Positions 48,567 to 63,520 of a stretch of 64,000 nt of DNA are shown here, one piece after another. The position numbers were made by a program, and so were the translations under genes. The notes beneath the pieces are model-generated. The model made no database searches. It was not told the origin of the DNA and was given only the letters and a program-made list of their open reading frames with translations. The DNA is taken from assembly GCF_008974185.1 (NCBI RefSeq), contig NZ_BKZP01000010.1, forward strand, positions 1-64,000, in the 5' to 3' direction. Position 1 is the first letter of the stretch; each line of letters begins with the position of its first letter. Origin of the DNA: Weizmannia acidilactici. GTDB taxonomy: Bacteria; Bacillota; Bacilli; Bacillales; Bacillaceae_C.

Positions 48567-48596
48567 AGTCATTCCCAAAACATGATTCTTTATATG

Positions 48597-48680
48597 GCTC
48601 CCTACGCTGGTATTATCCAGATCAGGTTAAAGGGTCGATGCCAAACCGCATCCTCTCAGCCAAACCGGCTCCCCTGCTCT
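48597..48680 (-). ncRNA. TPP riboswitch (THI box)
   Basis: On the minus strand: GGGGAGCC, GGCTGAGA, then ACCCTTTAACCTGATCTGG and ATAATACCAGCGTAGGGA. These are the conserved parts of the thiamine pyrophosphate aptamer in the right order. It controls the thi operon via the terminator at 48533-48566. Confidence 0.96.
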
Positions 48681-48733
48681 TTTCCTATTCGGCTCTGTTC
48701 ATCATCAATGCGGACCAAATCCTTCTGTTTATT

Positions 48734-58877: not shown

Positions 58878-59375
58878 TCATTCATGCAGCAACTTTTCTT
58901 TTTTGATCAGTTGCATCAGATCCGTTTTCCGATCTGCAGGTACTTGGCGGATTTCAAGCTCGATCCCCAGATTGGCCAACTTTACAAAGGCTTGAACATC
59001 CTCATTATCCAGGGAAATAAAATTTGTGACCATCTTTTTGCCTTCAGAAAAACGCATCCCGCCGATATTAACCGATTTTAAATGAACACCTGCGAGGACT
59101 ACTTCCAGTACATCTTGTGGTGAAGCAAACAACAACATAATCTTCGTCCCGTCAAACAGTCCGCTTTGATCGATATCAATCAGTTTTTGTTTCGTAATGA
59201 CGTGGGATTTGATGCTTGGTGGTGTAGCTTGTTTCAATAGAAACTTTCGCAACTCATCATGGGCGGCTTCATCACTGACCACTAAAATTCGTTCGATTCC
59301 CGTTGCCTTCGACCAGGCAGTAGCAAGCTGGCCATGAATCAAACGGTCATCAATACGAGTGAGTCGTATATCCAT
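58878..59375 (-). CDS. Stand-alone PTS mannose-family IIB protein
   Basis: A 165-aa IIB subunit with phospho-His14 in RIDDRLIHGQLATAW, LVVSDEAAHDELRK, IMLLFASPQDVLEV and VNIGGMRF. It is complete and clearly related to the IIB half of the next gene. ATG 59375 gives the family-typical MDIRL start, 10 bases from GGAGG; ATG 59381 (4 bases from it) is possible. It is the first gene behind the sigma-54 promoter. An accessory phosphotransfer or regulatory role towards LevR is possible. Confidence 0.93.
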   Translation of the reverse strand: MDIRLTRIDDRLIHGQLATAWSKATGIERILVVSDEAAHDELRKFLLKQATPPSIKSHVITKQKLIDIDQSGLFDGTKIMLLFASPQDVLEVVLAGVHLKSVNIGGMRFSEGKKMVTNFISLDNEDVQAFVKLANLGIELEIRQVPADRKTDLMQLIKKEKLLHE

Positions 59376-59581
59376 TCTCATCCCACCTCCAACTGTAAGC
59401 CTGTTCACTACTGAACTTTTTCTTGAAGGCCTCGGCGGATTTTCTCCGGCTTTCCATCAAGGGATAATACCGACAAGTCGGATCAAGCGATTTTCTTTAT
59501 CTCATTTTCCGCCATAAGGTAGAAAAAATTCTTCTGCAAATTTTGTTGATTTACCTCTTTTGCTTTTCTGCCTTTTTATAA

Positions 59582-59598
59582 TGCAAGATGCGTGCCAA
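59582..59598 (-). promoter_or_regulatory. Sigma-54 promoter of the mannose PTS operon
   Basis: On the minus strand TTGGCAC-N5-TTGCA, an exact -24/-12 element (GG of -24 and GC of -12 with correct spacing). It gives a leader of about 200 bases. The nearby LevR-type activator with its GAFTGA loop is the obvious partner. Confidence 0.93.
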
Positions 59599-59854: not shown

Positions 59855-60609
59855 ATCGAGTAGGAGGAGGTGACTAGCCCCCGTCCTCTCACACCACCGT
59901 ACGTACGGTTCCGTATACGGCGGTTCAATCAAATAAATGACGCTTGTCACAATACTTTTCATACAGGCTTTTCAGTCCTTGGTGATTTCAGTAGGAGTTA
60001 CCAAGGGTTTTGTGTAATATTGGACTTTTAGAAATTCGCCAATATGCTTTCCTTGAGTTTCCCCCTCAATGACCCATTTGTATCCTCTTTCAATAAACCT
60101 GTTCTGGCTCCACCCTCTTGAGGTCCCTCATGGAATTCACCACTACTTTCCTCAAGTAAGTCCACTACGGATTGTCTGTGTCATTGCCATACAGAATTTC
60201 CAGACGAAAACTTCTCTTTGATTGTTCAGTCCTTCCAAAACGGGAGCGACCCGTATTGTACTATGACCTCTGCTGACTTCTGACTGTTCAATAACCTATC
60301 ACTAGGCTAGTTACCAACTTAGTCGGCGTACCAGTCAGACCTCCCTGGGTAAGACTGCACTCTTTCCTCCACCTATCTGCCTCATTTACTCTGTATCACC
60401 TTTGGCAGTATGGACTTTACTTTGTTCGGCAAGCTCATCCAATGATACCTAGCCTTGTATGAGGTTCGTGTTCCTCAAGAATCGGAGGTTTGCCGCTCGC
60501 TTCCTTCAGATTCCGCATCACTACGGACACCCTTGCGTTAGGCTATCGCTACTACTGCCTTCGCGATTCGGGACTTTCACCCTATAGAGTGCAGCCACGC
60601 CAGGCGCAC
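59855..60609 (-). mobile_element. Group II intron relic, maturase mostly deleted
   Basis: On the minus strand the element begins GTGCGCC (60609), the usual 5' end, and continues with typical domain I sequence. Near the 3' end it has a domain V-like hairpin (CCGCCGTATACGG, then CCGTACGTACGGTGG). A domain VI region (GGGGGCTAGTCACCTCC) follows, ending in CCTACTCGAT near 59855. It is about 755 nt, whereas complete elements with maturase reach roughly 1.9 kb. It lies directly behind the levR terminator T-run, the preferred site of bacterial class C introns. Exact ends are inferred. Confidence 0.85.
59925..60131 (-). pseudogene. C-terminal fragment of intron maturase with internal TGA codons
   Basis: The frame inside the intron reads EPEQVY, stop, KRIQMGH, stop, GGNSRKAYWRISKSP, then ILHKTLGNSY, stop, and NHQGLKSLYEKYC up to TGA at 59925-59927. 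This is the C-terminus of group II intron reverse transcriptases. At least the first and third TGA stand where Trp (TGG) is usual. The reverse transcriptase domain is missing. Confidence 0.8.
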
Positions 60610-60610
60610 T

Positions 60611-60650
60611 AAAAAAGCCTGTAAACAGCAGTTTTCCTCTGTTTACAGGC
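60611..60650 (-). terminator. Terminator of levR and target of the intron
   Basis: Minus-strand GCCTGTAAACAG / CTGTTTACAGGC perfect stem, then TTTTTTA, followed within one base by the intron 5' end. Confidence 0.95.
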
Positions 60651-60655
60651 AAAAA

Positions 60656-63520
60656 TCACTGCACACCCGCCGTCTGCCGGGAGGATAAATTGTCGATCAT
60701 ATCGACAATATAATACAGTTCATCATCCGAAAGCTTCAGTTTCAGCTGGTCTTCAAAAATTTTCGCTGCTTTTTTATAACTTTCTTTCTTCTCTTCTTTT
60801 TCCGGGGTAATTTCATTTTTATAAATGAGTCCGGCATGTGTGACCACTCTTTCCAGCGCACATCCGATATGAATATTCATATTGATTTTCGAAGCGTTAT
60901 TAAACGGCCTTTCGGCAAGCCTTTCAATAGAAGATACAAACTCCGTTATTGCGCCGACCACTTTTTTTGGATTTAAAAATGTTAAAAATTCATTCAGGCT
61001 TTCTTCCGTCATTTCACGCACCATTGCCGGAGACCTTGGCGGCGTCTGCAGCAGCTGCTGATTTTGGATGAGATGCATAACCTGTGCTTCCCCGTCGCCC
61101 ATAAACAAGGCCTCTACCGGAATAAACGGGGCATGTACTTTCGGATCGACAATTCCGACGGTTAGAAGAATGTCATACTTATGCATATACGTTTCTTTTT
61201 TATCTTCAACTTCATTAATCTGCAGCGGAATCACGGTTATGTCGCTTCTGCCGATGTTTTTGAGCAATTGCTCGACAAGCTGTTTCAGTTTTTCCGCCGT
61301 CCCTTCCCCGGTTGAGCAGACGGAAAGGATGGCCGGCGGTTTTTGCGGCTGCCTTGTTTCCTCTGTTTTCTGCTCCACCTGGTAAGATCCGTAGCCGCGG
61401 AAATCTTTTAACGACTCGTAAATATCTTCAAGGTCCATTTCCATAATGGTCGCTTTGCGGATCGCCTCAATGACAAGCGCCGTTGTGACCATATCGATTG
61501 TCCGTGTTTTGATGCCCGTTTCCTGTGTAATAATATCGCCAAAACCAGTCAGAGACCCCATATCGACAAGCAGCAGCACGCCTTTTCCCATGTCAATTTC
61601 TTTCACCCGTTTTTTCATTTCTTCCAACACATATTTTGGGCTCATATCAAGCGGCATATCGATGCTGTCGACGTTTGATTCGCCAAGCAGGCTCTTTACC
61701 ACGCTCACCATACTGCTTGCTGTGCTGCTCCCGTGGGCGGCAACAAGAATGGCGACCTGTTCGGCTTTTTGGTCGTCCAAAAGTGACGTGAGCAGGATCG
61801 TCAAGTACATTGCTTCTTTAACCGGCACATGGACGCGGTACCTTTTTTCGATCATTTTGCAAATGTCAAGAGACAACTGGTACTCTTCCGGGCGGTCATT
61901 GATCACATTTTCGATATTTGTATAATTGGCGACCTGCTGGTTTTTCACCCGCTTCAGGAAAGAAGTCAAATGCAGGCTGAACGCAAACAGAAAGCGGTCA
62001 TTGACTTTGCGTTTCAGCCGTTTTTCCACAATTTCCTGCACTTCCTCGCTGAAATCAAGAATATCTTCACTCACGATTTTTAAAATTTTCTCGCGGTTCA
62101 GTGCATTGCTGGAAAACTTATTGTAAAACTTATTCAAGTGGATATCAATATCCAGTTTTAAAAACCGGTTGATGTCTTCATCCGAAACATCCTGATCCAT
62201 CATAAAGCTGACTTTATCCCCGATAATATTGTATAAGTTGAAATCGGGTTCATAAGGGTCCTCTTCAAAGAGCGCCTTGTTTTCCCCTTCCGGATACACT
62301 GTCAAATACGAATCAATCAACTCCGACAGTTCCTGAATTTCCTGCCGCTTCCTACTCAAATAGAAAAAGCCGTTTTTCAGTTCGGAAGGCAGGTCTTTAA
62401 AGTTGATAGTAATGACATCATCGTTCAGGCAATGCAAAAATCCGTTGGCGCACACAAGCTGGATGTTCGATTTCAGTTGCCCGACATTTCCGTATGAAGT
62501 ATTCCCGATTAAAGCTTTCATCGATTCCGCATCAATCTTAATCGGCTTTTGGACGCGATTTGCTTCGATAGCAAGCAGGAACTTCAGGATTTCGATTTTA
62601 TCTTTTGCAGGCCGCTCTTCAAAGGACGGAATCCGGATCAGGATCGGAATCCGCCGGACAAATGTTTTTAATAATGAAGAATCCGGATCTTCCGTTGTCG
62701 CCCCGATAATCAGGACATTCGCTTTCCGGTTCCGTTCCGTTTCCCCAAGCTTCGCATACGTCCCTGTATCCATAAAATAAAACAACATTTCCTGGCCTTC
62801 AGGCGGGAGCCGGTGAATTTCATCAAGGAACAGCATGCCGCCGTCCGCTTTTGTGACAAGGCCGTCTTTTTCACTGTCAGCCCCCGTAAACGCACCCTTG
62901 GTATGGCCGAAAATATGGGAAAGCAAAAGCTGCGGGTTATTTGCGTAATCTGCGCAGTTAAACACGATAAATTGAGCATCTTCATCCATAAACGGCGCCG
63001 AAGATTTTGCATAATTAAACATCATATTGGCAAACAGCGTTTTCCCGACACCGGTCTGCCCGACAATTAACGTATGGAGACCGTGCGGCGGATACAGGAC
63101 CGCTGCCTTCGCCTGTTCAACCTGCACTTTTAAGCTTGTTTTTGAACCGATTAGGTCATCAAAAGGATTCGGCTCTTCCGAAGCATCCGCATTTCCCTTT
63201 GCAGCGGGCCTTATTGTTGGAGATTGAAAGCTTAAAAGCTCGTTCATATTTTCATATTCATGCTGGTCATCCGGCAGTTTGCACCCCAGCAGTTTTTCGA
63301 TGCTGCTTTTGACCAAATAATGCACCGGCCGGCCTTTAATTTTGATGATGGAGTTTTGCCGCAGCAGTTTATTGAGTTCCGCGCTGACATTATTCCTTAA
63401 AATATCAAGATCGTTGGCAATATCAGAAGCTGTAAACCCTTCCATGTGGACAAAGTCATCCAGCGTTTTTCCTTCTGACTGCTCAACCAGGTAGGCATAG
63501 ATCCGATCAATACGCTTCAT
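60656..63520 (-). CDS. levR: LevR-type sigma-54 activator with PRD and PTS domains
   Basis: A 954-aa activator of the mannose PTS operon. An N-terminal HTH region (1-75) is followed by an AAA+ domain (about 120-370) with Walker A GQTGVGKT, the sigma-54 contact loop GAFTGA and LDEIHRLP. Next come PRD1 (about 440-560), an EIIA-Man-like domain (about 585-715, His in LVAAHGSSTASS), an EIIB-like segment (about 740-830) and PRD2 (about 845-950, NIHIGCALERV). Phosphorylation by HPr and by the PTS should set its activity. ATG 63520 follows GAGGTGGG. Confidence 0.95.
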   Translation of the reverse strand: MKRIDRIYAYLVEQSEGKTLDDFVHMEGFTASDIANDLDILRNNVSAELNKLLRQNSIIKIKGRPVHYLVKSSIEKLLGCKLPDDQHEYENMNELLSFQSPTIRPAAKGNADASEEPNPFDDLIGSKTSLKVQVEQAKAAVLYPPHGLHTLIVGQTGVGKTLFANMMFNYAKSSAPFMDEDAQFIVFNCADYANNPQLLLSHIFGHTKGAFTGADSEKDGLVTKADGGMLFLDEIHRLPPEGQEMLFYFMDTGTYAKLGETERNRKANVLIIGATTEDPDSSLLKTFVRRIPILIRIPSFEERPAKDKIEILKFLLAIEANRVQKPIKIDAESMKALIGNTSYGNVGQLKSNIQLVCANGFLHCLNDDVITINFKDLPSELKNGFFYLSRKRQEIQELSELIDSYLTVYPEGENKALFEEDPYEPDFNLYNIIGDKVSFMMDQDVSDEDINRFLKLDIDIHLNKFYNKFSSNALNREKILKIVSEDILDFSEEVQEIVEKRLKRKVNDRFLFAFSLHLTSFLKRVKNQQVANYTNIENVINDRPEEYQLSLDICKMIEKRYRVHVPVKEAMYLTILLTSLLDDQKAEQVAILVAAHGSSTASSMVSVVKSLLGESNVDSIDMPLDMSPKYVLEEMKKRVKEIDMGKGVLLLVDMGSLTGFGDIITQETGIKTRTIDMVTTALVIEAIRKATIMEMDLEDIYESLKDFRGYGSYQVEQKTEETRQPQKPPAILSVCSTGEGTAEKLKQLVEQLLKNIGRSDITVIPLQINEVEDKKETYMHKYDILLTVGIVDPKVHAPFIPVEALFMGDGEAQVMHLIQNQQLLQTPPRSPAMVREMTEESLNEFLTFLNPKKVVGAITEFVSSIERLAERPFNNASKINMNIHIGCALERVVTHAGLIYKNEITPEKEEKKESYKKAAKIFEDQLKLKLSDDELYYIVDMIDNLSSRQTAGVQ

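Follow-up and report, generated by a model that had tools for sequence, protein, structure and literature searches.

A multicopy ORF-less group IIC-type intron behind the levR terminator of Weizmannia acidilactici

The levR–PTS locus and the anatomy of the intron

The window analysed in this study is a stretch of 64,000 nt from contig NZ_BKZP01000010.1 of Weizmannia acidilactici. On its minus strand, a levR gene and its intrinsic terminator are followed by an intron and then by a mannose/sorbose-type PTS operon (Table 1). The gene is called levR on the strength of its domains (Sigma54_activat, PRD and EIIA-man in Pfam); the nearest NCBIfam model to the product was DagR, with a score below the cut-off. 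The levR relative in H. coagulans was 87% identical. The promoter-like TGGCACGCATCTTGCA ahead of the operon was the only match to the -24/-12 pattern on both strands of the window, and one letter differed in the H. coagulans loci L049 and L050. A TPP riboswitch (RF00059, 71.6 bits in Rfam) was annotated elsewhere in the window, at 48582-48685 on the minus strand.

Table 1. Features of the levR–PTS region and of the intron, in window coordinates.
Feature	Position	Strand	Basis
LevR-type sigma-54 activator with PRD and EIIA domains, host gene	60656..63520	-	Pfam
5' exon: levR intrinsic terminator hairpin (60650-60617), T-run (60616-60611) and A60610	60610..60650	-	
ORF-less group IIC-type intron, 755 nt, GTGCG...CTCGAT	59855..60609	-	Junction reading, Rfam, sister copies
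RF02001, part of DI-DIV core	60354..60527	-	Rfam, 119.8 bits; pair counts
RF01998, part of DI-DIV core	60229..60313	-	Rfam, 68.6 bits; pair counts
Presumed domain IV, 5' part, up to ORF deletion	60086..60228	-	Alignment to the ORF-bearing G001 intron until query position 524
Junction stretch between the two parts alignable to the full-length relative	60065..60085	-	Sequence common to four copies
Maturase C-terminal remnant, native TGA at 59927-59925	59925..60064	-	Alignment to sister maturase
Domains V and VI (RF00029)	59855..59925	-	Rfam, 46.5 bits
-24/-12 (sigma-54 type) promoter-like TGGCACGCATCTTGCA ahead of the PTS operon, downstream of the intron	59582..59597	-	Pattern scan
Mannose/sorbose-type PTS operon, first gene (EIIB), host gene	58878..59408	-	Pfam

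The motif GTGCG started directly after the terminator hairpin, six T and one A, where an earlier sequence-only reading of this DNA had placed it. A GTGCG-type start is typical of class C introns. The 49-nt stretch containing the terminator folded at -21.3 kcal/mol, which was equalled by none of 200 shuffles. The three families RF00029, RF02001 and RF01998 all scored above the Rfam gathering score, which no further group II match in the window reached; both domains V/VI and the DI-DIV core of a group II intron were thus found, and these models bear on group II identity, not on the IIC subclass. The covariance-model search bore out the sequence-only reading, which had seen a group II intron with domains V and VI still in place, and added the core blocks that it had missed. 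The span given there (59855-60650) had the right start, but its end took in the terminator, and the intron itself ends at 60609. The 5' segment that follows the core blocks is one we take to be domain IV. The RT/maturase ORF that class C introns hold in domain IV was absent. Most of the maturase had been reported as gone, and indeed only about 47 last codons matched the sister maturase described below. Because this C-terminal remnant is all that is left, the window intron is not classed as a complete class C retroelement.

The insertion left the levR terminator whole; the intron has levR on its 5' side and the PTS operon's promoter region on its 3' side. When the intron flanks were joined, the region aligned with H. 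coagulans, the first ~70 nt 3' of the intron poorly. The sequence GATACAGAAT, 71 nt after the intron, starts a series of blocks that are conserved in H. coagulans and interrupted by small gaps. The intron had been said to separate levR from the enhancer region of its target operon; this is right as to position only, and the enhancer itself was not located. Since the conserved blocks from GATACAGAAT to the -24/-12 promoter all lie 3' of the intron, no effect of the intron on the control of the lev/PTS operon would be expected.

Dispersed copies, deletion junctions and insertion sites

The draft genome that contains the window (3.19 Mb in 123 contigs, down to 201 bp) gave 22 matches to the 755-nt query. 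Two further complete copies were found at C22:28540-29293 and C22:36231-36984, 99.2% and 98.8% identical to the window copy, and a match on C27, cut off by the contig end, covered the final 271 query positions at 97%. A full-length relative of about 1,887 nt was present in the sister genome G001, with ribozyme parts 93.2% identical to the window intron. The window intron aligned to positions 2-523 and 1678-1887 of this relative, with 21 nt between both parts. The window copy, the two C22 copies and C27 carry the 28-nt ORF-deletion junction without a single differing letter. Because one deletion junction stands at four places, the ORF-less form itself appears to have dispersed after the loss of the ORF.

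Four more complete ORF-less copies, of 605-656 nt, were found on C51, C39 and twice on C9, and were 82-89% identical to the query over the matched 5' parts. This class aligned to positions 2-530 and 1816-1887 of the G001 intron, which is a different deletion, and C9a had an additional loss upstream of it. One junction at four places and a second class of four copies together make the pattern of an ORF-less mobile intron. A quick tree placed the four shorter copies in a single group with support 1.000, and their ribozymes differed from one another by as much as 8.4%; the deletion of this class is therefore likely older than that of the 755-nt class.

At seven further places (C1, C4, C6, C7, C14, the start of C22, and C35) the contig stopped after only 47-183 nt of the intron's 5' end. 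C13 held a 3' end with an internal gap, and C3 and C55 held small fragments inside contigs. The copy count of eight used here is made up of the seven complete copies and C27, leaving out the fragments and the gapped C13 end; some of the loci seen as 3' ends only (C27, C13) may be the far ends of copies that entered the junction count through their 5' ends.

The ends of the copies were the ends of the intron itself. At E ≤ 1, no common stretch of more than 13 nt was found in the 600-nt flanks of the three complete 755-nt-type copies. Among the flanks of all seven complete copies, one long match was found (208 nt at 77%, C22b versus C9b), together with a few others of 15-21 nt. A dispersed repeat of about 120-130 nt (L063 6174-6304, L065 8181-8299) has 12 near-full matches listed in genome G003, and the 208-nt flank stretch seems to belong to the repeat with these 12 listed matches.

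The readable 5' junctions of this genome, namely those of the seven complete copies and seven 5' ends, with C27 and C13 left out as 3' ends only, all lay behind a hairpin of -11.5 kcal/mol or stronger (14/14). A U-run of 4 or more was present at 12 of them, and C22b and C1 had three U. In a random control with positions drawn from the window itself, intron included, a hairpin of -8 kcal/mol or stronger was found at 82 of 600 positions, and such a hairpin plus a U-run of at least 4 at 9 of 600. The hairpin-adjacent junctions fit the terminator preference reported for IIC introns, and the sequence-only reading, which had pointed to this preference, was right here. Three junctions from other genomes stand outside the 14. 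The B. smithii junction had a hairpin of -9.8 kcal/mol with a U-run of 6, and that of G004 a hairpin with a U-run of 2. The ORF-bearing intron of G001 (L059 2966-3042, G001 C15), with a U-run of 1, immediately follows domain VI of a different group II intron, whose DVI hairpin seems to have served it as a terminator-like target.

The intron was absent from H. coagulans at all five orthologous sites tested, with the window site compared in L049 and L050 and the sites of C22a, C22b, C9a and C9b in G003; C51 and C39 stand outside this comparison. The C22b site had 36 nt between matched flanks in G003 versus 45 non-intron nt in the own genome, the C9a site 71 versus 170 nt, and the C9b site 68 versus 340 nt, the repeat included. 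The C22a site was the least clean, with 227 nt and other DNA in G003 versus 51 nt in the own genome.

Own EBS1-IBS1 pairs were compared with swapped pairs over the seven complete copies. The four offsets gave p values of 0.99, 0.23, 0.125 and 0.68, none of them significant; the value at the likely offset was 0.23, with four of the seven loops identical. The window intron's own EBS1-IBS1 pairing was weak. A loop match of C9b to its exon was set aside as proof of this pairing, as no offset was significant in the swap test.

Ribozyme structure, maturase and relatives

The pairing of the ribozyme was examined on the Rfam structure in 12 sequences, namely the seven complete ORF-less copies and relatives from G001, G004, B. 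smithii, G021 and G009. In these rows, which mix ORF-less copies and larger relatives and whose kinship limits the test, 88.6% of cells in the core helices paired, versus 34-42% in the slid control. Both sides changed in 24 of 70 helix pairs (shuffle mean 11.7), which was reached by none of 500 shuffles. The 'further pair types' of the core alignment showed no excess over shuffles in the 12 sequences, and core helices 2 and 11 paired in just 48% and 67% of cells. Under the same limit of kinship and mixed rows, 98.9% of cells in domains V and VI were paired over 12 distinct sequences, with 4 of 22 pairs changed on both sides, a number that 11 of 500 shuffles reached.

Three larger relatives, among them G004 C11 with its broken ORF, scored 141-144 bits against RF02001, and the seven complete ORF-less copies 117-126 bits. 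These lower scores indicate that there is some drift in the ORF-less copies. RF00029 was below threshold in C39, C27 and both G004 introns, one of the latter with an intact ORF. C39 passed RF01998 only at 39.9 bits, and it looks like the weakest ribozyme of the complete copies.

The G001 intron encodes a protein of 421 aa without stops, with RVT_1 and GIIM as its sole Pfam families at E ≤ 0.001. It scored 435.7 bits against TIGR04416 in NCBIfam (cut-off 300). The nearest solved structure was the GsI-IIC RT, matched end to end over query residues 3-417 (E 1.8e-166). The C-terminus of this maturase (residues 374-420 of 421, 85% identity) lies within the window part aligned to positions 1678-1887. 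The sequence-only reading had counted three in-frame TGA codons in the remnant. The count is literally right in the maturase frame, but one of them, the last in the frame, is the native stop codon. A second TGA stands where both C22 copies have retained a Trp codon, and the third precedes an extra G that is absent from the C22 copies. The idea that an 84-codon open frame of the C22 copies might encode a small protein was dropped, as the frame is broken in the window copy.

Full-length copies in the same genome had been proposed as a source of maturase in trans. This did not hold for the draft assembly: none was found there, and one was found in the sister genome G001. The profile search of the own draft assembly gave no RVT_1 or GIIM match at E ≤ 1, and a protein search of it with the G001 maturase at E ≤ 10 found C-terminal remnants only. 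The other four congeners had one to four RVT_1 matches each, some of which are perhaps not intron RTs. In the draft of G001, 13 of the 14 protein matches were C-terminal pieces of ~40% identity, and a single RT body was present in the assembly. Of these 13 pieces, nine lay no more than 18 nt from the start of a contig, and another lay at the end of one. Draft assemblies therefore lose multi-copy RT bodies, as the clustering of pieces at contig ends and the single assembled body show. Up to seven contig-end copies could hide an RT in the own genome, and its true absence is possible but rather doubtful.

An ORF-less cousin of 640 nt, unannotated in the record, was found in the Bacillus smithii plasmid NZ_CP012025.1 (L085 1479-2118). 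It sits behind a hairpin and T-run, and its deletion junction is unlike both classes of the own genome. G021, from another genus of the same family, had 14 equal-scoring matches, each of 76%, to the first 512 nt of the query (e.g., C6:141255), and its intron was 1,888 nt long at both places where the 3' end was seen (C1, C6). Matches were found in 461 plasmid records, none of them with 80% query coverage in one place, and the B. smithii record alone was examined closely. Phage records gave four weak partial matches only, and the junction pattern was not found in viral contigs.

Origin of the copies and comparison with known systems

We consider it highly probable that an ORF-less intron that looks structurally complete stayed mobile and was spread in trans, by an RT-maturase, to terminator sites. 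The maturase/RT gene would have been cut out of domain IV, leaving ~47 C-terminal codons. The shortened intron RNA would then have been spliced out and, carried by a trans-supplied RT-maturase, would have entered DNA by reverse splicing right behind terminator hairpins and been copied in. Such retrohoming would have placed the intron at levR and at least three other places. The driver may have been a relative of the intact 421-aa protein of G001, and dispersal driven in trans by a G001-like maturase would most simply account for the copies. Splicing, the trans supply and the choice of this protein as driver are our inferences.

The sequence-only reading had called the window intron a relic. 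This is fair for the protein gene, but not for the ribozyme, which looks complete with its core, nor for a lone dead element, as the form stands at four places. If a full-length intron had inserted behind levR and lost its ORF in place, the remnant could well be more decayed in the window than in the C22 copies, as it is (TGA for Trp, extra G). However, an identical deletion would have had to occur repeatedly, which is not credible for one junction at four places with unrelated flanks for the three complete copies, and both the core and domains V and VI are present and paired. A dead relic is thus very unlikely. Small ORF-less multicopy elements are often driven by transposases, and the 208-nt, 77% repeat common to the C22b and C9b flanks could likewise suggest that DNA transposition or recombination, not retrohoming, spread the copies. 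We regard this as, if anything, less likely still, given that the copy ends are the intron's own ends, a hairpin precedes all 14 readable 5' junctions, and the three 755-nt-type copies have no common flanks.

As several of the 123 contigs of this draft genome end inside the intron, an assembler might have fused the 5' and 3' ends of full-length copies. Such an artefact is extremely improbable: there are two distinct deletion classes, each of the seven complete copies has substitutions and flanks of its own, and a separate ORF-less cousin lies in the complete B. smithii plasmid record. Retrohoming of an ORF-less intron in trans is the reading that we prefer.

ORF-less group II introns are described as rare in bacteria and as nearly always found beside RT-bearing relatives, with C.te.I1 of Clostridium tetani cited as the single exception (PMC4424553). 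Like the window intron, C.te.I1 is ORF-less and no related IEP gene was found in its genome; it differs in that it is reported to self-splice in vitro (PMC4424553), whereas the genome studied here has many copies and is a draft. The group IIC RNA class applies with or without an IEP, and class C introns such as B.h.I1 also insert after intrinsic terminators (PMC4424553). The sister copy in G001 resembles them in encoding an RT/maturase nearest to the GsI-IIC RT, while the window intron differs from the B.h.I1 type by its missing ORF. In a later survey, 888 of 13,041 bacterial introns were without an IEP, and ORF-less introns were also increased in certain genomes (PMC8919778).

The closest parallel is Thermosynechococcus elongatus, for which 17 ORF-less introns with one common deletion are reported, some of them mobilised by RTs of other introns (PMC2882425). 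Its TeI3 ORF-less introns are likewise multicopy with one ORF deletion of common break-points, and they keep N/C-terminal ORF remnants as the window intron keeps a C-terminal one (PMC2882425). In TeI3 the RTs are known and mobility was assayed (PMC2882425), whereas the window intron is of IIC type behind terminators, and no RT was found in its draft assembly. ORF-less, RT-driven multicopy introns are therefore already known, and a possible lack of any RT could be the one feature that sets the present case apart. Judged by title and abstract, no work on group II introns in Weizmannia, Heyndrickxia or Bacillus coagulans was found in the literature searched, and the papers that pair Bacillus coagulans or Heyndrickxia with 'group II intron' concern genetic engineering.

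We tentatively suggest, as a less than even possibility, that two ORF-less IIC-type lineages with at least eight copies spread in a Heyndrickxia-related genome that now holds no RT, the driver maturase having been lost later or coming and going on mobile DNA. If this is true, ORF-less introns would be obligate hitch-hikers on visiting RTs, and the ORF-less cousin on the B. smithii plasmid would show a possible travel route for them. The case also shows that an 'intron relic' that seems to stand alone may have sister copies, which should be looked for before the element is declared dead. A multicopy IIC-type case with a close RT-bearing sister would offer a compact system for the action of a maturase in trans, and a maturase driving introns in trans is a step in models of the origin of the spliceosome.
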